Assembly: GCA_025201365.1 (NCBI GenBank)
Contig: JAIXMF010000004.1
Coordinates: 1,116,001 to 1,180,000, forward strand
Length of the DNA: 64,000 nt
Reading direction: 5' to 3'
Source: Syncephalis plumigaleata
Lineage: Eukaryota; Zoopagomycota; Zoopagomycetes; Zoopagales; Piptocephalidaceae
Translations under genes and position numbers: made by a program
Part shown: positions 37,602-63,407 of the stretch, piece after piece
How positions within the stretch are numbered: the stretch's first letter is position 1
How the letters are laid out: every line of letters starts with the position of its first letter
The notes under the pieces: model-generated
What the model saw: the letters and a program-made list of their open reading frames with translations, nothing else
What the model was told of the DNA's origin: nothing
Databases searched by the model: none

Positions 37602-40600
37602 ATGTCGTGTCTATTGCTATCAAGATATGCCATGTCCCTACCGACGAACGCTATAGCTAGTCAAGAAGGTGTCACGATAAGTACAGCTATATCGGCGACC
37701 AATAGCCTTACTGCTCCTAGTAGTAATAGGACGAGCCATCGAGATCCGTTAAAAGCCCACGATAATAGCGTAGAGTGTAATCAGTCTGGTCAACTATTAT
37801 CGCCACTGTACAATACGTTAAACTGGATGGTCAAACGCATACCAAAGACGGGTCAGGCTACTATATTGGCTGTACTGCTGTTTCTGCTATTGCAACTAGC
37901 GGGTATCTATATATTTACGCGTGGCTTCCTATTAACTCGTCTGGCTATTGAGGAAAAGAGTCAATGCGGCATATTACCCACGGGCGTTAATGCTACGACA
38001 AGTGTGCATTCCACCGGTTGTTGGCAGCCACGTAGTTTCAAACGAGCCGTTGTCGTGATTATCGATGCACTTCGATTTGACTTTGCCGCATTCGATAGGA
38101 CACGTCCGCGTACCGAGTATTACCGTAACAAACTGCCCGTCATCGATGAGGCAATCCGTAATCGGCCGGGTCAAGCGGCTTTGTTTGAATTTGTAGCCGA
38201 TCCGCCCACCACCACGCTACAACGATTGAAGGCACTTACCACGGGCACACTGCCTACATTCGTGGATGCAGGCAGTAATTTTGCCGGTTCTGCCATTACG
38301 GAGGATAACTGGCTTGCTCAGGCCAACAGCAATGGCTTACGTATATGGCAGATAGGCGATGACACATGGGGCTCGATCTATCCGGAGAATGTACTCAACA
38401 AAACGAATCCGTATCCGTCGTTTAACGTAAGAGATCTACACACGGTCGACAACGGTATTCTGTCACATTTACCGGAGGCATTCGGCGACAAGCGCGATGA
38501 ATGGGATATACTCATTACCCACTATCTCGGAGTGGATCATTGCGGTCATCTGTACAGTGCTAGTCATCCGGCAATGGAGGATAAATTGTTGCAAATGAAT
38601 AATATGCTAGAGAAGCTTATACAACAACTTGACAACGACACCGTGCTACTTGTATTTGGCGATCACGGTATGGACACGAAGGGAGATCATGGTGGCGACA
38701 GTGAGATTGAGGTGCAAGCCGCGCTATTCATGTATGGCGGTCGTGAGTTCATGCCCAAGGATCGACGACATCTCAACAAAGTGCTCAATCGACTGGCCGA
38801 ATACGAGCCCGATGACCCTTCCATGCGTGCATTTATTAATCGATCGGATGTAGGCTTTCATCGTACAGTGCCGCAGATTGATCTAGTGCCGACCATTTCA
38901 TTCTTATTGGGCATACCAATACCGTATAGTAATCTTGGTATGGTAATTCCTGAACTGTTCCTAGCTGCAATGAATGACTATGACGGTCAGCATCATCATT
39001 TACCGCTGGATGAACATATCAATAGCTCTGGTACTCGTCTGGCGAGTGCAACTCGATTGAACGCGCAACAAGTATTCCGGTATATGGAGAAATACACGTC
39101 GCGTCAACCATCGGGCGAGATGGCTGAAGGACTAAAGTTGTTTCGTAAAAAGTTCGTTGAAGCCGAGGACATGTACGAACGTTATATCGCGAATAATCAC
39201 CATTCAACCTTCAGCACTAATGAGAGCAAGAGCAATGAGATGGATGATGCGCAGGCTTATGAAGTGTTTCTAGCTTATGCACATTTCTTACGTGCATCCT
39301 TATCATTCTGTCGTAGGATATGGGCGCAATTCGATACAGTACTAATGAACACCGGTATTGCCATTCTACTTGCTATCTGTCTATGCATGTGGCGGATAAC
39401 ACGACGTACCACGCCTTTATCCAGGGTAACGGTGATCAGCTGGTATAAGGGTGCATTGGCTGGCGTGGTAATCACGATATTAGCGCAGCGTATTCGATTG
39501 GCATTAGTTATTTGCAACATGTTGGGCATGCACACGTTACAGCAATTGGATCAAACTCTTGTGGCAATGGTGACCGGGTTTCTAATCTCATTCCTCGTTA
39601 ACTCGTACCGCGAACCAATTGTATTTGACTATACCACCACCACAGAGTCAGTCGATGTGTCGACCAAATCTATTTGGTATCGTGTAACGACGTTATTACC
39701 AAGTTTCGATGAAGGATTCGGCTGGCTAATACTAGTTGGCGCGCAGTGTATGATGTTTGCCTCGAATAGTCTAACTGTATTTGAGGATCGTATTGATCTG
39801 GCATTACTACAAACCTACGGTATTGTTTCTATTATACGTGCCATTGCACGATATCGTATTTGCTGCATTCATAATAAGCATAATGTCAATGATCAGCGTC
39901 AGCTATTAAGAACGACATGGCGCCGCTGGGTTATTTCCGCCAGTTTATTTATGCTATTGACTCGTCTAAGCGGCGGTACAACTATTTGTCGCGAGGAACA
40001 AGGCAAAGATTGTGTACCCAACTTTTATACTGGATCCGGTGCATGGGCATCTGATGCTACGCTCGTTCAACTGGTGGCATCAGCAATAATTACACCATGG
40101 CTAATACGACGTGCGCTGATGAATACACAATCATTCCACGGTGTAGCTCGATTATGGATCGACTGGGGTCTACGCTTGGCTCTTTTATTATCGGCCGGCT
40201 ATTGGATACTTGATCAGTCGCATAGTACACCCATAGCCACGCACGGTTCCGATACGCCCAATGTTGTGGTAGCCGAGCATAATGGCTTATATGGCGATGC
40301 CTCCACCAGCGATTCAGGTGAAGAGGGAATGATGCATATATTAAAACGAACGACGGCACGATTTGGATATGGCACCAGTTTGATTATCGGTCTAATCGGC
40401 TGGCGATCCAATCCACTTTGTCTAGCAATAGGCAAGCCTAGCCAATCGACTAATGATCATGACAATAATCATAATAATAATAATAATACGACATCTACTC
40501 GTGCCATACTAGGTATTGATAATGCGTATGGCGCTCCTTACCTCGTATTGCTTACCGTGATGTACGCGGCACTTAGCCAGACACAACAACCAAGCGGCGG

Positions 40601-41303
40601 TCTCTCGTTTGCCATTGGTATTTGTCATTTGATCACGACTATCGAGTTATTCGCGGCGCAATCGACCGTACAACGAATGACGCAACCACGATCACCACCT
40701 GCATCTTCACTTGGTCAAGCGGTGATATTGGCAATTATGGCACAGCATTACTATTTTGCCACGGGACATCAAGCCACCCTTGCTTCCATTCAGTGGCGAA
40801 CCAGTTTTATCGGTTTAAAAGATATTAATTGGATCGTGTCTCCTTTACTAATCATAGTGAACACATTTGGATCGCATATTCTATTCTCGATGGCCATTCC
40901 CCTCCTAGTGTTATGGCGATTATCCGCGCGTAAATCAATAGGCAACCCTGCAAGCGAGCAAGTACTGCTACAACAACAATACGATCAAGCATCGAGTAGC
41001 GTTTACTCGTCATCGAGGATATGGTCACGTATATGTCGTATTGCATTTGCGTGGTCATTGGTTTGGACCATATCGGCGGTGGCAATCTGTATGTGGTGTG
41101 TCAACTTTCGCCGTCATCTCATGGTATGGAAAGTATGGGCGCCTAGATTCATGCTAGGCACTGTGGCTACCCTAATCAATCAGCTGGTGCTCGTGGTCGT
41201 CACTCTATGGTTCGGTGTAGCAAGAACAGTGGATGCAGTGGATAATGCTCTGAATAGACCATTGGAAGATGAATTCGACAATGATGATAACAAGGAAACT
41301 TGA
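37602..41303 (+). CDS. GPI13: GPI ethanolamine phosphate transferase 3 (PIG-O/Gpi13)
   Basis: Single 3.7-kb exon, 1233 aa, unusual here because neighbours of this size are split. It adds ethanolamine phosphate to the third mannose of the GPI precursor in the ER lumen. After one N-terminal helix (ATILAVLLFLLLQLAGIYIF) comes the alkaline-phosphatase-like catalytic domain: VVVIIDALRFDFAAFD (metal-site Asp), TTTLQRLKALTTGTLPTF, ITHYLGVDHCGH, and FGDHGMDTKGDHGGDS (Asp/His metal ligands). The C-terminal ~650 residues are a multi-pass region with a dozen or so hydrophobic segments, broken by a polar Asn/His-rich loop near 40450-40490. Length fits PIG-O (about 1000-1100 aa) with inserts. The start is the first ATG; the downstream ATG nine codons on is possible. 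Confidence 0.93.
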   Translation: MSCLLLSRYAMSLPTNAIASQEGVTISTAISATNSLTAPSSNRTSHRDPLKAHDNSVECNQSGQLLSPLYNTLNWMVKRIPKTGQATILAVLLFLLLQLAGIYIFTRGFLLTRLAIEEKSQCGILPTGVNATTSVHSTGCWQPRSFKRAVVVIIDALRFDFAAFDRTRPRTEYYRNKLPVIDEAIRNRPGQAALFEFVADPPTTTLQRLKALTTGTLPTFVDAGSNFAGSAITEDNWLAQANSNGLRIWQIGDDTWGSIYPENVLNKTNPYPSFNVRDLHTVDNGILSHLPEAFGDKRDEWDILITHYLGVDHCGHLYSASHPAMEDKLLQMNNMLEKLIQQLDNDTVLLVFGDHGMDTKGDHGGDSEIEVQAALFMYGGREFMPKDRRHLNKVLNRLAEYEPDDPSMRAFINRSDVGFHRTVPQIDLVPTISFLLGIPIPYSNLGMVIPELFLAAMNDYDGQHHHLPLDEHINSSGTRLASATRLNAQQVFRYMEKYTSRQPSGEMAEGLKLFRKKFVEAEDMYERYIANNHHSTFSTNESKSNEMDDAQAYEVFLAYAHFLRASLSFCRRIWAQFDTVLMNTGIAILLAICLCMWRITRRTTPLSRVTVISWYKGALAGVVITILAQRIRLALVICNMLGMHTLQQLDQTLVAMVTGFLISFLVNSYREPIVFDYTTTTESVDVSTKSIWYRVTTLLPSFDEGFGWLILVGAQCMMFASNSLTVFEDRIDLALLQTYGIVSIIRAIARYRICCIHNKHNVNDQRQLLRTTWRRWVISASLFMLLTRLSGGTTICREEQGKDCVPNFYTGSGAWASDATLVQLVASAIITPWLIRRALMNTQSFHGVARLWIDWGLRLALLLSAGYWILDQSHSTPIATHGSDTPNVVVAEHNGLYGDASTSDSGEEGMMHILKRTTARFGYGTSLIIGLIGWRSNPLCLAIGKPSQSTNDHDNNHNNNNNTTSTRAILGIDNAYGAPYLVLLTVMYAALSQTQQPSGGLSFAIGICHLITTIELFAAQSTVQRMTQPRSPPASSLGQAVILAIMAQHYYFATGHQATLASIQWRTSFIGLKDINWIVSPLLIIVNTFGSHILFSMAIPLLVLWRLSARKSIGNPASEQVLLQQQYDQASSSVYSSSRIWSRICRIAFAWSLVWTISAVAICMWCVNFRRHLMVWKVWAPRFMLGTVATLINQLVLVVVTLWFGVARTVDAVDNALNRPLEDEFDNDDNKET

Positions 41304-53247: not shown

Positions 53248-54428
53248 AGTCTACAGGGAGGCAACAGCTACGGAAACAAGCTACAAAGAAAAGACAAGTG
53301 AGGACGAATATTTTACGCAAAATGATTGTTGTTATTATTATTGCATCAAAAAAACATGCATCTTATTGAATTCTAACGCCACCCATCAAATACGAACGTT
53401 TCCTGCGTTACACCATACACGTCCATATTTCGATTTCGATTACTTTACGCAGTTTAAGGCTTTAACTACAAGTATATTTCAATGAAGCTGATTAGCAATT
53501 AACAACTATATTCAAAATATGATTAACATAAGAAACTATTGTTTATTGCATGAGCAACTGTTACTAATGATATCGATAATGGTGATCAAGACACAATTCA
53601 ATTAGTTATTGTCTAGATTGCTTGTGGCTACATCCCCACCTCATGTCAATCATAGAGGATAGATGTTTGCTAGTGTAGGCACAAAACTAGTATGGACATT
53701 ATTGTGCATAAAAGTAAAGAGTGAAATATAAACAGAATTGACTAGTAAGAGTATGGTTCCAGTTAAGCGATAGGAAATGAAGAGCAAACAGACAATTTAC
53801 TGCAAATCCGATTATACAAATAGCAAACACATCAAATGACAATCCAGTATTTCTTTTCTTGAATGGTCTCACACATCCACATACATGTATCTAGAAATAA
53901 CAGAATAGCAATGACTATCATCATGCTCACTTATTGCGTGTACAGCACAATAGTAATGACATTGATGTGTAAACATAATGGTCATTTATTACACCTCAAC
54001 ATAGGAAGACATGTCATCAGGATGATATTCCATTGATTCTAAGCAAATGTGACAATGCAATCATACGATAGTTGACGTGAACAGCCTATGTCAATATTGC
54101 TTCACTTTCTCTATTTGGATTGCGTTCGACAATTGACATAACAGGTTGTCGCGTATTCCCACATCTAATTGGTATTAATATACTCCATCTATCATCTACC
54201 GTTTATAGATTAACAGTTCAACTATATTAATACCTGATATCGTTTCATGGGCATCAATCAAAAATAGATTTGTACTATCTATCACTGGATAAATCTATTG
54301 TCCGACACTTGTATGGCAATGGTACGAATACAGGCTGATTGCTGTTCGTTAGAGGGAATACAACATCCATGATGGTACTGTTATCGTGTATTGTCCGATA
54401 CTCCATCACTATCATCTTGGATATAAAT
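53248..54428. other. Intergenic upstream of micro-exon gene 1
   Basis: About 1.2 kb between CFT1 and the first micro-exon gene. A+T-rich, with no ORF showing a recognisable motif and no tRNA-like structure noticed. Confidence 0.45.
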
Positions 54429-54564: not shown

Positions 54565-57500
54565 ATGAAGTTCTCTGCCGTTATCGCTATTGTCGTCGCC
54601 GTTGTCGCTCTCACCAGTCTGGTCGCCGTCGAAGCTAGTCCCGCCTTGGTCCGTCGTGGTATGTCTGGCCGTGACCCTATCAATTGATGTACTAATCGTA
54701 GCCTATTGTTTCATTGTCTACCGATGGTTACCGATAGAACGTAAGTTCATGTATATTAAATGATTGTATTGACATGTTAATCACATCATTATGTTTATTT
54801 TGCCTATTGGTTTATCAGATCCACTTCGTAAGTTAGTTTATAAACCATAACAAGCATCATGCTGATCACATTATAATGCTTATTCTGCGTGTTAATTTGT
54901 TAGTTAAAGGCAGTAAGCTATTTTATTGGCCATAACAAGTACTATGCTAATCATAGTGTAAATCGAAATCATGTGCGAATGCATTTACAAGGCAAAGTGA
55001 GTGATCATTTTGATCGTAGTGTACGAGTACTAATCACAATTAATCACACGATTCGTATACTTGTCTATCATAGTGTGTAAGTTACCATTCTGATGGCAAT
55101 AAATGACGTACTAATTACGCTATGGCACACGATCCACGTATGTTCCCGCACGATAGGACGTAAGCTACCGTTTTGATTGTAACGTATGAGGTGCTAATGA
55201 TAGTATGCTGTATGTTCCTGTATGATAGGGAGTAAGTTGCAATCTAATTGTAATGAAAGAGATATTAATAATAATGTGGCACATGATCCATATATGTTTT
55301 TGTATGATAGCATGTAAGTTATCATTCTGATTGTAATGAAAGGATGCTAATTATGATATGGCACATGATTCACGTATGCTTGTACACGATAGGTCGTAAG
55401 TAATCATTCTGACTGTAATGAATGCATGTGCTAATAATATGTCACGCAATCCATACGTATGTCCCAATATAACAGTGTGTAAGTTGCCATTTCATTTACA
55501 AACTATGGTGTACTAATTATGATGTGGTATACGATTCATGTGTATTTGTCTATAACAGTGCGTAGGTTACCATTATGATCGTAATGAATAGATGTACTAA
55601 CAATGATATCACACATGATCCACATATGTTCCCGTATGATAGAAAGTAAGTGATCATTATGACCGTAATACCTGATGTACTAATTACAAATGGCACACGA
55701 TTAACATATGTTCATGTACGATAGCAAGTAAGTCATCATATGATTGTAATGGATGAATGAGTACTAATGGCAATATGACATATGATTCCCGTGTGTTTAT
55801 GTATTGTAGGACGTAAGTGATCATTCTGAATGCAATGAATGATGTATTAACTATGATACGGCACACAATCCACGTGTATTCCTGTATGATAGTGGGTAGG
55901 TTATCATTCTGTCTGTAATGAATGGCGTACTAACTACGATCTGGCACATGATTTCCTTATGTTTCTGTACCATAGGCCGTAAGTTACTATCCCGGTGACG
56001 CTGTACGAGGCACTAACTAAGCTATGACATACGATCTGTACATGTTACTGTATGATAGGGCGTAAGTTAATAGTTTTAACTGCAATACATGAGGTGCTAA
56101 CAACGATATGGCACACAATCTATACGCTCCTGTACGATAGGCCGTAAGTCATTATTCTGACTGAAATGAATGATTACTAACTACAGTATGGTTCTTGATT
56201 CGCATATGTTTGTGTGTGCTAGGTTGTAAGTTAGCATTCGGATTGTAATGAATGAGATACTAACCGTCTTATAACACATCACCTATACGTGCTTGTGCGT
56301 AACAGTGTGTAAGTTACCATCGTGACTGTAATGAACATGAGTACTAATCACCTTTGCCAAATGATCCATATACGTTCCTGTATAATAGCTTGTAAGTTAT
56401 TATTTGGGCAGTAACCGATGAGGTACTAATTGTAATGTAACACACGATTCATATACGCTCTTGTATACCAGCCTGTAAGTTATCATTTTGACTACAATGA
56501 ATGAATGTACTAACCACAACTTACCTTACAATCCACGTATCTCCCTGTATGATAGGATGTAAGTTATCACTCTGACCGTAATAAATGAGGTACTAACTAC
56601 GCTATGGCACACTATCCATATACGCTCTTGTGTACCAGCCTGTAAGTTACAATTCTGACCGCAATGTATCGATGTACTAATAATAATAATATGTCATACG
56701 ATAGGATGTAAGTTACTGTTTGGATTGTAACGAATGATGCATTAATATTAATCTGGCATACGATTCACATATGCACCCGTATGATAGGAAGTAAGTTGGT
56801 ATTCTGGCTGCAACATATGAGATTCTAATCATGCTATGGCACACGATCCATATGCTTCTGCATGGTAGAAAGTAAGTTAATATTGCTGATTACAATGTAT
56901 GAATGTACTAACTATACTATGGCACACGATCCATACACATTCCTGTATGATAGGACGTAAGTTTTTACCTGATCGTAATTTATGACGTACTAATCACGGT
57001 ATGGCACATGATCCACATATGCCTCTCTATACCAGCCTGTAAGTTGTTATTTTGACCGTAACGCATGATTTTACTAATCACATATGGCACACGATCCCAT
57101 ATGTTTTTATCTAACAGATGGTAAGTGAATATTCCGATTGCAATTAGTGATATACTAATCACGCTATGGCATATGGTACACGTATATTCTCGTACGATAG
57201 ATCGTAAGTTCCCATTCCGATGACGCTGTATGGGGCACTAACTACGATACGACTGGCGATTTGCGTATGCTTGCACTCCATAGGAGGTGAGCTATTAGTC
57301 TGATGGTAATATGCGCTGTATTAATTGCAATCTGACCCGTGATTCACGCGTGTTTACGTATAACAGGCTGTAAGTTACCTTTCCAATCCTCATCTACAAT
57401 GTACTAATCGTCCTATGGCATATGATTCTGATATACGTGTGTATGATAGAGAGTAAGTCGTCATTCTATCTGAAATGTATGAATGCACTAATCGCAGTAT

Positions 57501-58780
57501 GACGTACGATTCACTTCTGTTTCTGTACGATAGAAAGTAAGTCAATACTCCGGTCATAAGCAATGCTTTTACTAATCATGACATGGCACGTTCGCATACG
57601 TTCGTATGTAATAGCAAGTAAGCCATTATGCTAGTTATACACGATGATGTATTAATTATGGCATGTGACACACGATCCACGTATGTATGGATACGATAGG
57701 CCGTAAGTTATCATTCCCATTGTTGTCTACGGTGTATTAACTACGATACGACAATCGATCTGCATATGTTTTTGACTAATAGGAGGTAAGTGAAAGATGC
57801 TTACCATTGTCTAAGGTACTAACAGCAACACGATGCACGATTCGCGTATGCTTGTGTAAATAGAAGGTAAGCCATCATTTGAACTGCAACGTATGGATGT
57901 ACTAATTGTAGTATGGCACATAATCACCGTATGTTTATTTGTGGCAGGAGGTAAGTCATCATTCCAACGATAATGCATGGCGTATTAATTACAGTACGGC
58001 ATGCAATTCATGTATGCTTGTGTATGATAGAGAGTAAGCTACCATTCTGATTGCAATGCATGGATGTACTAATTGTAATAATGAACTCCTCGATCCGCGT
58101 ATGCTTACATCTACCAGCAAGTAAGTTCCCATACTCCTTACTACAATGAATGGATGCACTAATGATGATATGGCATGCAACCAATCTATGTTTACGCATG
58201 ATAGGCAGTAAGTCAATATTCTAATCGTAATGCATGGATGTACTAATGACAACATTGTGCGCGATCCACATATGTTTGTGCATAACAGATTGTAAGTTGA
58301 CGTCTCAATGATAATGGATGGATGTACTAATGACAATCTGGCACACCATTCGCGTATACTCGTTCATCGTAGAACGTAAGTGAATATCTCGATTGTAGTG
58401 TATGTGGTACTAATTGTGATATGTGACATGCAATCCACGTATGCTTCGTGACTGATAGGATGTGCGTTAACACTTTAATCATCGTGTATGAGGTACTAAC
58501 GAGAATGTGGCACACCACTCATGCATGCTTGTATACAACAGCGGGTGAGTTGTCATTCTGGCCATAGTGTATCGTGTATTAACTGTGTGTGTGATGCATA
58601 TTTGTGTATGCCAGATGGTAAGCAATCATTTCCCGATTGTAAACTACGGCATACTAATCACAGTATGACACATGATCCGTGTATACTTGTGTACCGTAGA
58701 AGGTAAGCTACCATTTCAATTGTAATATAAACGTACTAATCACACTATGACATGTCCTACTTTTACAGAACCGTCATTAA
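54565..58780 (+). CDS. Micro-exon gene 1: secreted 88-aa peptide spread over 52 exons, 46 of them 3 nt
   Basis: Exon 1 (54565-54658, 94 nt) encodes a signal peptide and S-P-A-L-V-R-R, a Kex2-type site. Exons 2-5 are 54738-54740, 54819-54827, 54904-54912 and 54992-54996 (3, 9, 9, 5 nt) and read EHPLLKGSK; the 5-nt exon moves phase 1 to phase 0. Exons 6-50 are exactly 3 nt and start at 55074, 55157, 55229, 55311, 55393, 55476, 55559, 55643, 55725, 55810, 55893, 55976, 56059, 56141, 56223, 56306, 56389, 56472, 56556, 56639, 56705, 56788, 56869, 56954, 57036, 57118, 57201, 57294, 57367, 57450, 57534, 57615, 57700, 57783, 57864, 57948, 58031, 58118, 58205, 58289, 58373, 58459, 58542, 58615 and 58700. 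Exon 51 is 58769-58783 with the TAA at 58778. Each intron (about 63-90 nt, mostly 78-84) has GTAAGT or a close variant, a CTAA branch and YAG. The codons contain no stop and read CDGHVCCKQDWAGAVC, then a charged helix-like tail ending KNRH. The model comes from splice sites alone. An untranslated intron with spurious sites is the alternative. Confidence 0.72.
54992..54996 (+). other. 5-nt phase-setting micro-exon, gene 1
   Basis: Between ACAAG and GTGAGT. It is the only internal exon of gene 1 that is not a multiple of three, and with it the 94-nt first exon and all later codons fall in one frame. The paralogue has a 5-nt exon at the same ordinal position (60744-60748). The acceptor ACAAG is weaker than the usual YAG. 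Confidence 0.6.
55074..58702 (+). repeat. Quasi-tandem array of intron-plus-codon units, period about 83 bp (gene 1)
   Basis: Forty-five successive units of about 80-nt intron plus 3-nt exon. Introns share a loose common text: GTAAGTTATCATTCTGA, TGTAATGAATG, TACTAA, then GGCACACGATCCA, CGTATGTT and GTATGATAG. Divergence among units is considerable, but the order of these blocks is constant, as expected from old repeated duplication of an intron-exon unit or spread of one intron. Confidence 0.75.
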
Positions 58781-58783
58781 GCA

Positions 58784-59041
58784 GTAAGTAATAATTCAAC
58801 AAATAATCATACTCATACTAATCCAATATGACTACAGGACAAGACAAGGACATCATCAAGTAGATATTATAGGTATTCAAGTCAAGAATGTATTGGTGCA
58901 AGACCCTTTAGTGTCCATACCACTCAAGTCATTATTCCTTGGTACAACAACTACAAGTATATCTACAAGTCCCTTCCGTCTATTCATCCATGGTCCTATT
59001 ACATAAATATCAACTAATGGCTGGTTCATTTATTGAATAAA
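58784..59041 (+). other. Last intron and conserved 3' UTR of micro-exon gene 1
   Basis: A 54-nt intron (58784-58837) begins 3 nt after the stop codon. The 3' exon starting at 58838 is about 95% identical to that of gene 2 (63204 on) over ~200 nt and ends near an AATAAA at 59036-59041. It contains an open frame in another phase, but in the paralogue changes fall at all codon positions, so I read it as UTR. Confidence 0.6.
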
Positions 59042-60176: not shown

Positions 60177-60316
60177 TATAAATCAAGCACTTTTGACACA
60201 CTCGACTTGTCGTCTTCATACTCGCTCTTCTGCTCTACTCTACTCTACTCTCACTACTATCTACTCTCGTTCTACTCAGTTTATCTGCCTATCGATTCCA
60301 CTAGGCCAACATCAAC
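60177..60316 (+). promoter_or_regulatory. TATA box and leader of micro-exon gene 2
   Basis: TATAAA at 60177-60182, 135 nt before the ATG, then the same CTCGACTTGTC element, CTCTACTCT-type pyrimidine leader and CCACTAGGCCAACATCAAC as in gene 1. Confidence 0.7.
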
Positions 60317-63149
60317 ATGAAGTTCTCTGCCGTTATCGCTATTGCCGTCGCCGTTGTTGCTCTCACCAGTCTGGTCGCCGTTGAAGCTAGTCCCGCATTG
60401 GTTCGTCGTGGTATGTCTGGCCGTGACCCTACCAATTGATGTACTAATCATAGCCTATTGTTTCATTGTCCATCGATGATTACCGATAGCTCGTAAGTTC
60501 ATGTATATTAAATGGTTATTTTGACGTGTTAATCACATTATAATGTTTATCCTTCGTATTGATTTGTTAATAATAGTTAGTAAGTTACACCATTGACTAC
60601 AACAAGGATTATGCTAATCAAACTATAATGTTTATTTTGCATATTGATTTATTAGCTCCAAGTAATTGACTAGATCGTTGACCATAACAAGTACTATGCT
60701 AACTGTAATATAAATCAAAATTATATGTGGTTACTATTTGAAGAGGATGTAAGTTATCATTCTGATCGTAATAAACGGAATACTAACCACAATCTGTCAC
60801 ACAACCCATATACTCGTCTATCACAGTGCGTAGGTTATCACTATGATGGCAATAAATGACGTACTAACCATAATATGGCATATGATCCTGTATATTCCCG
60901 TATAACAGAAAGTAAGTTATCATTCTAACTGAAATGAATGGCGTACTAACTACACTATGGCACATGATTCACATACGTTCTTGGATACCAGCCTGTAAGT
61001 TACCTTTCTTACTGTAATGAATGAATGGAGTACTAATACCAATATGGCTCATTATTCATATTTGCTCCTGTATGATAGGACGTAAGTCATTATTTTGACC
61101 GTAATGAATGACGTACTAATCACGCTATAACACACGATCCACATATCTTTGTATACAATAGGAAGTAAGTTACCACTGTGGCTGATGTATGACGTGCTAA
61201 CTATGATATCGCATATAATCCATATGTTCCCGTATAATAGACTGTAAGTCATCATTTTGACCGTAATACCTGGTGTACTAATATCAGCGTGGCACACGAT
61301 TCATGTTTGTTTGTGTACGATAGTTTGTAAGTTATCATTTCGGTTACAATTTATAATATACTAATATTAAATGGCACATGATCCGCATACATTCATGTAT
61401 GATAGTATGTAAGTGATCATTCTGACGATGCTGTACCGTGTACTAATCACAATATGACACATTATCCATGCATGTTCCTCTATGATAGGACGTAAGTTAT
61501 CGTTCTGATCGTAATGAATGGAGTAATAACCACGGTATGACACACGGTTCACGTATGTCTCTATATGATAGGGCGTAAGTTGATATTCCAAGTGTGGTAT
61601 ACGTCATACTAATCGCACTATGGCGCACGATCCACATATGTTTATTTATGATAGTATGTAAGTTATCATTACAATTGTAACCTATGAATGAGTACTAATC
61701 ACGCTATGACATATGATTCACGTATGTTTTTTGTATGATAGGGTGTAAGTTATCATTTTTGATCGTGATGAATGAGATACTGACTACGATACGGCATATA
61801 ATTTGCATGTATTTCTATATGATAGGGCGTAAGTTATCATCCCGATTGTGATGAATGGATGTACTAATGACAGTATGGCGCACGCTTCATTTGTGTTTGT
61901 GTATAAACAGGGAGTAAGTAATCATTTCTGACTTTAATCTATGAATGAGTACTGATCACGTTATGGCACATGATCCACATACGTTTGTATATTATAGCAT
62001 GTAAGTCATCAATCTGACCGCAATGAATGCATGTACTAATAATATGGCACACGATCCATACGTATGTCCCGGTATAACAGTGTGTAAGTTGTCATTCCAT
62101 TTATAAACTATGGTGTACTAATGCTAATTGACCCTCTATCCATACGTATATCTGCTTATAACAGTGTGTAGGTTGCCATTATGGTCGCAATGAATAGATG
62201 TACTAACAATGATATCGCACATGATCCACATACGTCCTCGTATGATAGAAAGTAAGTCATTATTATGATTGTAATGAATGGATGTACTAATTACAACATG
62301 GTACACGATTAACATATGCTCCTGTATGATAGCAAGTAAGTCATCATATGATTGTAATGGATGAATGAGTACTAATGGCAATATGACATATGATCCCCGT
62401 GTGTTTATGCATTGTAGGACGTAAGTGATCATTCTGACTACAGTGAATGAATGCGCTAATTATGATATGGCACACAATTAATACATGTCTGTGTATGATA
62501 GGGAGTAAGTCATTATTCTGGCTGTAATCTATGAATGTACTAATCACGTTATGACATACAATCCACCTATGCTCCTGTATGATAGAACGTAAGTTATCAT
62601 TCTGACAGTAATGAATGAGTTACTAATCATAGCATGGCGCATGATTTTCTTATTATAGGACGTAAGCTATCATTGTAACTGTAACCTATGAGCGTACTAA
62701 TTGTAACGTGGCACGTGATTTCCTGTATGAAAGATTGTAAGTTGACATCCCAATCGAAATGTATGATTGCTAACCGCAATATCGGCACATGTCCAACATA
62801 TGTTTGCGTATAACAGGTTGTAAGTTATCATTCTGGTTATAATGAGTGAGATACTAATGATAATATGACACATGATATTCATACATTTGTGGATAACAGT
62901 GCGTAAGTTACTATTCTCGATGATAACGTATAGGTGTACTAATGTTAACATGACATATGATCCATATACGCTTGTGTACGATAGCGTGTAAGTGAATATC
63001 GCTCACTGTAATGTATGAATGAGTACTAACTACTGTATGGGCATGATTCACGTATGTTTGCGTATAACAGTATGTAAGTTAGCATTCCAGTCGTCATCTA
63101 TAATACGCTAATCACAATACAATACCCATTAATTAAATGATAGCAATAA
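60317..63149 (+). CDS. Micro-exon gene 2: secreted 66-aa peptide spread over 35 exons, 30 of them 3 nt
   Basis: Exon 1 (60317-60410) is nearly identical to that of gene 1 (signal peptide, then ASPALVRR). Exons 2-5 are 60490-60492, 60577-60579, 60656-60661 and 60744-60748 (3, 3, 6, 5 nt), reading ALTPKD and again moving to phase 0. Exons 6-33 are exactly 3 nt, starting at 60837, 60909, 60992, 61079, 61162, 61241, 61324, 61406, 61489, 61572, 61655, 61742, 61826, 61911, 61998, 62081, 62165, 62249, 62333, 62418, 62502, 62586, 62659, 62734, 62817, 62900, 62985 and 63071. Exon 34 (63144-63152) ends the frame with TAA at 63147. No stop occurs among the 28 codons; they begin C-K-P-D, pass a Gly/Tyr-rich stretch and end CCKQDGNDIVCRYQ. 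CC-x8-C matches gene 1. The mature product after the Arg-Arg site would be 35 aa. Donor GTAATT after exon 4 and acceptors GAAG (exon 5) and AAAG (62733) are the weakest sites. Confidence 0.72.
60744..60748 (+). other. 5-nt phase-setting micro-exon, gene 2
   Basis: Between TTTGAAG and GTAAGT, at the same ordinal position as the 5-nt exon of gene 1 but with different bases. An alternative acceptor two bases on would leave 3 nt and put the array in a different phase. Confidence 0.55.
60837..63073 (+). repeat. Quasi-tandem array of intron-plus-codon units, period about 83 bp (gene 2)
   Basis: Twenty-eight successive units of the same design as in gene 1. The block 62081-62420 (codons for CCKQD) matches gene 1 block 55476-55812 intron by intron; other units are only loosely similar. 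Confidence 0.75.
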
Positions 63150-63152
63150 GCA

Positions 63153-63407
63153 GTAAGTAATACTTCAAATGATCATACTCATACTAATCCATTATGACTA
63201 CAGAACAAGACGAGGACATCATCAAGTAGATATTATAGGTATTCAAGTCAAGAATGTATTGGTGCAAGACCCTTTAGTGTCCACGCTATTCAAGTCATTA
63301 TTCCTTGATACAACAACAACAAGTATATCTACAAGTCCCTTCCGTCTATTCATCCATGGTCCTATCACATAAATATCAACTAATGGCTGATCCATTGATT
63401 GAATAAA
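63153..63407 (+). other. Last intron and conserved 3' UTR of micro-exon gene 2
   Basis: Intron 63153-63203 (51 nt) begins 3 nt after the stop; the 3' exon from 63204 matches gene 1 and has AATAAA at 63402-63407. Confidence 0.6.

Follow-up and report, generated by a model that had tools for sequence, protein, structure and literature searches.

Genes with long arrays of predicted one-codon exons form a family in the fungus Syncephalis plumigaleata

The analysed stretch of Syncephalis plumigaleata DNA (contig JAIXMF010000004.1, positions 1,116,001 to 1,180,000; 64,000 nucleotides (nt), hereafter the window) carries a gene, gene 1, with a run of 45 exons of 3 nt each, and a second gene of the same plan, gene 2 (60317-63407). 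It is very probable that both genes belong to a large S. plumigaleata family encoding small, probably secreted peptides, and that the 45 three-nucleotide exons are spliced into one reading frame. An earlier note, made from the letters of the window alone, had described gene 1 as a probably fungal gene in which a signal-peptide exon is followed by about 45 one-codon exons; gene 2 was absent from it. At the level of sequence this interpretation is supported, because (i) no stop codon occurs among 764 triplets called in 32 genes, (ii) an NCBI protein model contains 40 of the 45 triplets of a paralogue and (iii) a divergent member of the family has an intronless homologue. The host is indeed a fungus, and a mycoparasite.

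Structure of the two genes

An exon caller supplied with donor, branch and acceptor scores only, coding information being unused, returned the exon list of the earlier note, including all 45 one-codon exons of the series (exons 6-50; Table 1). Exon 1 of gene 1 encodes the peptide MKFSAVIAIVVAVVALTSLVAVEASPALVRR plus one extra base, and its assignment as a signal peptide, already made in that note, was by eye. Exon 1 ends in phase 1; the 5-nt exon 5 brings the frame to phase 0, and each 3-nt exon downstream of it therefore corresponds to a single complete codon. The triplets are sense codons throughout and lead in frame to the TAA of exon 51, where the stop had been placed; the predicted spliced product, MKFSAVIAIVVAVVALTSLVAVEASPALVRREHPLLKGSKCDGHVCCKQDWAGAVCLPDPDEKDPMIEARKQAEKERQAINDRMKNRH, has the proposed C..CC..C arrangement. 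Gene 2 follows the same plan, with a predicted product ending in ..HCCKQDGNDIVCRYQ. The listed introns of both genes are 63-84 nt long (median 80 nt, in line with the approximately 80 nt first read), and in most units the branch A lies 43 nt upstream of the exon.

The spacing of the splice signals far exceeds chance expectation. The window contains 69 copies of YAGNNNGTAAGY, and 68 of these lie inside the two genes; in 100 shuffles the mean was 1.6 and the highest count 5. Across 170 kilobases of family loci, the distance from YAG to a GTRRG-type donor in the paired donor-acceptor-donor pattern is 3 nt in 588 cases, 9 nt in 28, 15 nt in five, 12 nt in four and 6 nt in three, with no more than two cases at any of the remaining lengths between 0 and 15 nt; between positions 1 and 54000 of the window no 3-nt spacing was found. 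Recursive splicing at zero-length exons was considered and rejected: a 0-nt spacing was seen 0 times vs. 588 times for 3 nt, and the uninterrupted relative L068 (see below) supports retention of the codons. Genome-wide, the strict pattern GTAAGT-N62-84-YAG-NNN-GTAAG has 2,200 matches, compared with 79 for the reversed pattern. Of the 73 one-codon exons in gene 1 and gene 2 it recovers 52; by rough extrapolation from this recovery, the whole genome may contain about 3,000 such exons.

A gene family in the S. plumigaleata genome

The 32-amino-acid peptide of exon 1 has at least 147 matches in the genome at E up to 0.001, intronless relatives included; the figure is a lower bound, since 150 of 171 candidates were scored. 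One-codon exons were called in all of the 30 best-ranked matches, with 2 to 47 per gene. The 32 called genes comprise the two window genes, the 28 other best-ranked matches, and loci L053 and L066, and the fetched loci as a whole consist of this family and its relatives only. Lower-ranked matches were picked for long open frames and are thus unrepresentative; among them L054, L055, L057 and L059 are intronless, and L051, L052, L056 and L058 were left out.

In each of the 32 called chains, a single switch exon of 2, 5 or 11 nt precedes the array. Array exons are 3 nt long in 764 of about 783 cases; eight are 6 nt, one each is 12, 15 and 21 nt, and the remaining called lengths are 2, 5, 8 and 25 nt. 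The sequence of the 3' untranslated region (3'UTR) of gene 1 recurs across the family. Intronless relatives that retain the family leader and 3'UTR were found at L060-L065, L054, L055 and L068, the start codon or frame being lost in several of them, and the junction of exon 51 with the 3'UTR was found at six places without its intron.

In protein searches, named matches were confined to S. plumigaleata, the others being unnamed or metagenome proteins. Metagenome proteins P0138-P0144 carry a related exon-1 peptide, and three of them continue into what appears to be family intron 1 (..RRGMSGHGRIN); array genes in further species are therefore possible. A Pfam search with seven proteins gave no family above the cut-off (nearest, Conotoxin for L045, with a score of 17 against 25.1), a search of the PDB returned one chain at chance level (E 0.3), and an Rfam search yielded nothing at the gathering threshold.

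Evidence that the triplets are coding

After removal of six near-duplicate genes, the called triplets contain 0 stops in 630, where 23.7 are expected from position-specific base composition; with cysteine triplets excluded, the values are 0 in 570 and 14.3. For the first triplet set (651), control triplets taken 7-9 nt and 10-12 nt past the donor contain 62 and 12 stops, respectively. A second version of the caller gave an intact open reading frame (ORF) in 21 of the 25 genes with a terminal exon. Among the 16 intact peptides obtained with the first version, the C..CC..C frame is present in ten, two contain just two cysteines and four are cysteine-free.

The NCBI protein BDF22DRAFT_685769 (P0121) includes, from NPING to APEK, 40 of the 45 one-codon exons of L043 (contig C362) in order. 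The missing exons are among those with donors GTAGGT, GTAAAT or GTAGAT (two are ambiguous, as the neighbouring residue is identical), and an exon with the donor GTACGT is present.

Triplets resembling splice sites are scarce in the arrays. CAG accounts for 0 of 19 glutamine codons, compared with 55 of 164 in six other reading frames of the window; for valine, 1 of 24 codons is GTA or GTG, compared with 144 of 228.

Several regularities of codon choice were also observed. Across the 26 de-duplicated genes, synonymous choice follows the first base (YNC 15 vs. YNT 115, TGY excluded; RNC 139 vs. RNT 96), a split absent from the six other window frames (327:458 and 524:746), and TAC encodes 0 of the 24 tyrosines in one-codon exons. 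The acceptor base at -3 tracks the codon, with CAG ahead of 57 of 60 cysteine and 33 of 38 proline codons and TAG ahead of most others. The donor GTAGGT follows 24 of the 60 cysteine codons and is rare with other codons.

An uninterrupted counterpart of a divergent array gene

Locus L066 (C1:1411000-1419800) is a divergent array gene that lacks the signal peptide and retains family leader-like and 3'UTR sequences; 63 of its 74 called internal exons are 3 nt long. The NCBI protein P0132 resembles its spliced product, and the 104 matching residues of P0132 are encoded in one open frame (C318:1455923-1456234). When RANQHLDLFGTIAFEKKQKD (L066) is aligned with ANQHLDLFGAAAFEKRQKD (the uninterrupted ORF of L068) over the part ANQH..QKD, 16 of 19 residues are identical and the score is 86, the maximum of 2,000 shuffles being 39. 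To obtain RANQHLDLFGTIAFEKKQKD, 13 one-codon exons together with a 12-nt and a 6-nt exon have to be joined.

The array part closer to the start scores 61 against L068 (maximum of 54 in 5,000 shuffles). At the DNA level, spliced L066 scores 90 against L068 over 22 one-codon exons and into the terminal exon; random reordering of the exons, repeated 500 times, reached 34 at most. L068 contains no introns up to the shared 3'UTR; its own frame diverges past QKD, and the final nine codons match at DNA level only.

Divergence among paralogues

For the divergence analysis, 8 of 12 paralogue pairs were used, not all of them independent. In all eight, the donor, branch and acceptor parts are less diverged than other intron positions, two of the differences being tiny, and cysteine is kept at all 21 aligned cysteine sites. 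Length differences correspond to whole units: L049 is 164 bp (two units) longer than gene 1, with a codon string two codons longer, and the gaps of 80 and 82 bp between L028 and L029 amount to two codons. Units 13 and 14 of L050 have introns that are 100% identical and the same codon. Units 28 and 48 of L042/L043 and units 12 and 15 of L047 share 91-95% intron identity, and their codons differ at all three bases (ATC/GAA and GCC/TTT).

Within the trio of gene 2, L033 and L031, triplets differ at 0.205-0.422 per site and unconstrained intron parts at 0.100-0.139. For gene 1 and L049 the two values, 0.074 and 0.071, are practically the same, and the changes comprise four synonymous and three non-synonymous ones; two near-identical pairs have no triplet changes. 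Faster change in triplets than in introns is thus not general, being clear in three comparisons within one trio only; we read this as diversifying selection around the cysteine frame in part of the family. Units of one gene that share a codon are also slightly more alike upstream of it (0.573 vs. 0.533; observed difference 0.041, permutation maximum 0.035); downstream, the observed difference of 0.019 is below the permutation maximum of 0.031. Since the likeness is confined to the upstream side, codon-specific lineages of units are only a lead.

Proposed origin and expression of the arrays

The anatomy of the genes, the restriction of array exons to 3 nt, the lack of stop codons, the insertion and deletion of whole units, the conserved cysteines and the homology of a spliced array to an uninterrupted gene are all derived from sequence. 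On this basis, we propose that the gene 1 pre-mRNA, with its 51 short introns, would undergo ordinary spliceosomal splicing across each of them. Because the introns are uniformly short and their donors strong, each would most likely be recognised singly by intron definition, and its codon would be added to the lengthening exon before the following donor comes into play. The switch exon would convert phase 1 into phase 0, each exon after it supplying one codon. Exon 1 would direct the peptide to the secretory path, and its RR is a possible processing site of the Kex2 type, cleavage there being inferred.

The block of intron plus codon, about 83 bp, would be a tandem unit gained or lost through unequal exchange or slippage; as the units are tandem, single codons could be added or removed without a frameshift. 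Selection would then diversify the mature peptide around fixed cysteines. Mature peptides may act extracellularly, perhaps on the fungal host, a role that is conjecture.

Several points weigh against this interpretation. The control triplet within the acceptor consensus likewise contains 0 stops in 651, and the absence of stops is accordingly strong but insufficient evidence, for the consensus alone can cause it. Four of the 25 complete chains are broken as called (L034, L036, L047 and L048). The first version of the caller gave an intact ORF in 16 of 22 complete chains, and the second was tuned after these failures, GC donors and longer introns being permitted, with loss of the terminal exon of L035. 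P0121 omits five of the 45 triplets, most of them with weak donors, continues into intron 2 and may be an ab initio prediction. The called chain of L066 is not an intact ORF and includes doubtful exons of 2, 8 and 21 nt, and its exon windows, shifted by one base, still score 39 and 46 against L068. Uninterrupted homologues of the mature peptide of gene 1, of L040/L041 and of L032 were not found, empty searches of this kind proving little. Finally, removal of the introns in vivo, production of the peptide and its secretion are inferred from DNA.

Alternative explanations

One alternative, which we judge unlikely but worth keeping in view, is that the one-codon exons are spliced and variably included, one gene then giving rise to peptides that differ by single residues. 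Being 3 nt long, all such exons are symmetrical, and skipping would never break the frame. The five codons omitted from the NCBI model have mostly weak donors (GTAGGT, GTAAAT, GTAGAT), and the mostly symmetrical microexons of schistosome micro-exon genes (MEGs) were interpreted likewise by their authors (PMC4671649). Against this, cysteine is the most conserved residue even with GTAGGT behind so many of its codons, an argument for routine inclusion of exons of this type. A wider proposal, similarly speculative, would make the whole genome a system in which exon equals codon, with one-codon exons numbering in the thousands and spread over dozens to more than 100 effector-like genes, tandem cassettes being copied, lost and re-lettered residue by residue, and the skipping of single cassettes yielding a peptide library around a fixed cysteine frame.

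About as doubtful is an origin through invasion, in which introner-like introns entered an intronless ancestor codon by codon and tandem unit duplication played no part. Intronless relatives do exist, and codons set apart by introns in L066 have homologues in the uninterrupted L068. Neighbouring near-identical units with the same codon (L050) and the whole-unit indels between paralogues speak against invasion, as does the extreme site choice that insertion at exactly every third base would entail. The precise absence of introns from L068 fits loss through reverse transcription. By eye, however, neither a poly(A) tract nor a target duplication was seen in the L068 sequence. That the intronless relatives are retrocopies was considered; they share the promoter-like sequence, and the poly(A) tract was not seen.

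It is very improbable that the array belongs to a single long intron, or is a repeat without coding function that resembles exons, and that the mRNA runs from exon 1 straight to exon 51 or the 3'UTR. Tandem repetition with a unit of about 83 bp would be in keeping with this reading, and in three pairs the triplets outpace the introns, as unconstrained spacer might. The exclusive 3-nt spacing without stops, the retention of every aligned cysteine, and the synonymous changes (four, beside three non-synonymous) in the closest changed pair (gene 1 and L049) contradict it, as do the homology of spliced L066 to L068 and the order of triplets in the NCBI model. Equally hard to sustain is the idea that the family is decaying and its arrays are neutral leftovers of pseudogenes, for which the damaged intronless relatives and the four broken chains could be cited, since most chains are intact, splice signals are more conserved than other intron parts, cysteines are strongly retained, and promoter-like and 3'UTR sequences are common to the family.

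Location of the features

The coordinates of both genes are listed in Table 1. Elsewhere in the window (37602-41303) lies a homologue of GPI (glycosylphosphatidylinositol) ethanolamine phosphate transferase 3 (GPI13/PIG-O), which shares 62% identity with its Syncephalis fuscata counterpart.

Table 1. Features of the two array genes (positions within the window)
Feature	Position	Strand	Basis or remark
Gene 1, TATA-box-like motif TATAAAT	54422..54428	+	upstream of gene 1; putative, sequence match
Gene 1, exon 1 (94 nt; signal peptide and dibasic RR, phase-1 end)	54565..54658	+	exon caller
Gene 1, exons 2-5 including introns	54738..54996	+	exon lengths 3, 9, 9 and 5 nt
Gene 1, exon 2, AAC	54738-54740	+	
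Gene 1, exon 3, ATCCACTTC	54819-54827	+	
Gene 1, exon 4, TTAAAGGCA	54904-54912	+	
Gene 1, exon 5, GCAAA (5-nt switch, phase 1 to 0)	54992-54996	+	
Gene 1, exons 6-50 (45 consecutive 3-nt exons, phase 0, no stops)	55074..58702	+	exon caller
Gene 1, exon 51, AACCGTCATTAAGCA (15 nt, TAA in frame)	58769..58783	+	
Gene 1, 3'UTR exon, to AATAAA (59036-59041)	58838..59041	+	same 3'UTR sequence across family
Gene 2, TATAAAT	60177..60183	+	upstream of gene 2
Gene 2, exon 1 (94 nt)	60317..60410	+	exon caller
Gene 2, exons 2-5 including introns (CTC, TTA, CTCCAA, AGGAT; the last is the phase switch)	60490..60748	+	
Gene 2, exons 6-33 (28 consecutive one-codon exons)	60827..63073	+	exon caller
Gene 2, exon 34, CAATAAGCA (TAA in frame)	63144..63152	+	
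Gene 2, 3'UTR exon, to AATAAA (63402-63407)	63204..63407	+	

Significance and comparison with known systems

If the proposed splicing is correct, these genes are a limiting case of gene fragmentation, in which exon length equals codon length up to 47 times consecutively. They would test the minimum exon size that the spliceosome can handle in series, provide a route by which a gene family gains or loses single amino acids without a frameshift, and form a gene class likely to escape standard annotation. The earlier note knew of no one-codon runs on this scale; likewise, in the literature searched, which was short on subscription papers and bioRxiv preprints, we found nothing on one-codon-exon arrays or Syncephalis microexons.

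Tiny exons as such are known. The 1-nt exons of APC11 and VPS55 in plants and a 3-bp exon of Drosophila homothorax show that exons of 1 to 3 nt can be included by spliceosomes (PMC8831610, PMC7392893, PMC4674806). Those exons are isolated and lie in ordinary genes, whereas the Syncephalis exons form runs of up to 47. Among filamentous fungi, Trichoderma Xlr2 has one alternatively spliced, functional microexon, stated to be the first (PMC11121469); the Syncephalis genes share with it the presence of microexons in a filamentous fungus and differ in having arrays instead of a single exon. Introner-like elements copy one intron sequence through coding DNA, and tandem duplication can create introns (PMC4457414, PMC4974935). 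Unlike such elements, the Syncephalis copies lie head-to-tail with exactly one codon between them.

In design, the genes come closest to the two systems named in the earlier note, the MEGs of schistosomes and the bicycle genes of aphids, a comparison that is apt. MEGs encode secreted parasite products and have a signal peptide in the 5' exon, long flanking exons and a centre rich in microexons of mixed size, below 36 bp, of which 26 of 33 are symmetrical among the newly described ones (PMC4671649). The predicted Syncephalis genes resemble them in the probably secreted products of a parasite, in the signal-peptide 5' exon, in long flanking exons, in a central part composed mostly of microexons below 36 bp and in the bias towards symmetrical exons. 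They differ in the near-uniform 3-nt length of the array exons and in introns that are tandem relatives of one another. Common descent with schistosome MEGs is unsupported by protein searches or Pfam, so we describe the genes as MEG-like in design and do not class them as MEGs.

Bicycle genes are fast-evolving putative effectors with many small exons, more than 100 microexons being present in megacycle (PMC9168663). Their internal exons are almost all of phase 2 and number about 17 per gene on average (PMC9168663). The Syncephalis genes likewise constitute a fast-evolving putative effector family built from many small exons, whereas their array exons are in phase 0 and one codon long; homology to bicycle families was not found in protein searches or Pfam either. 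What distinguishes the Syncephalis genes from both MEGs and bicycle genes is the exclusive use of one-codon exons, the phase of these exons and the tandem relationship of the introns.

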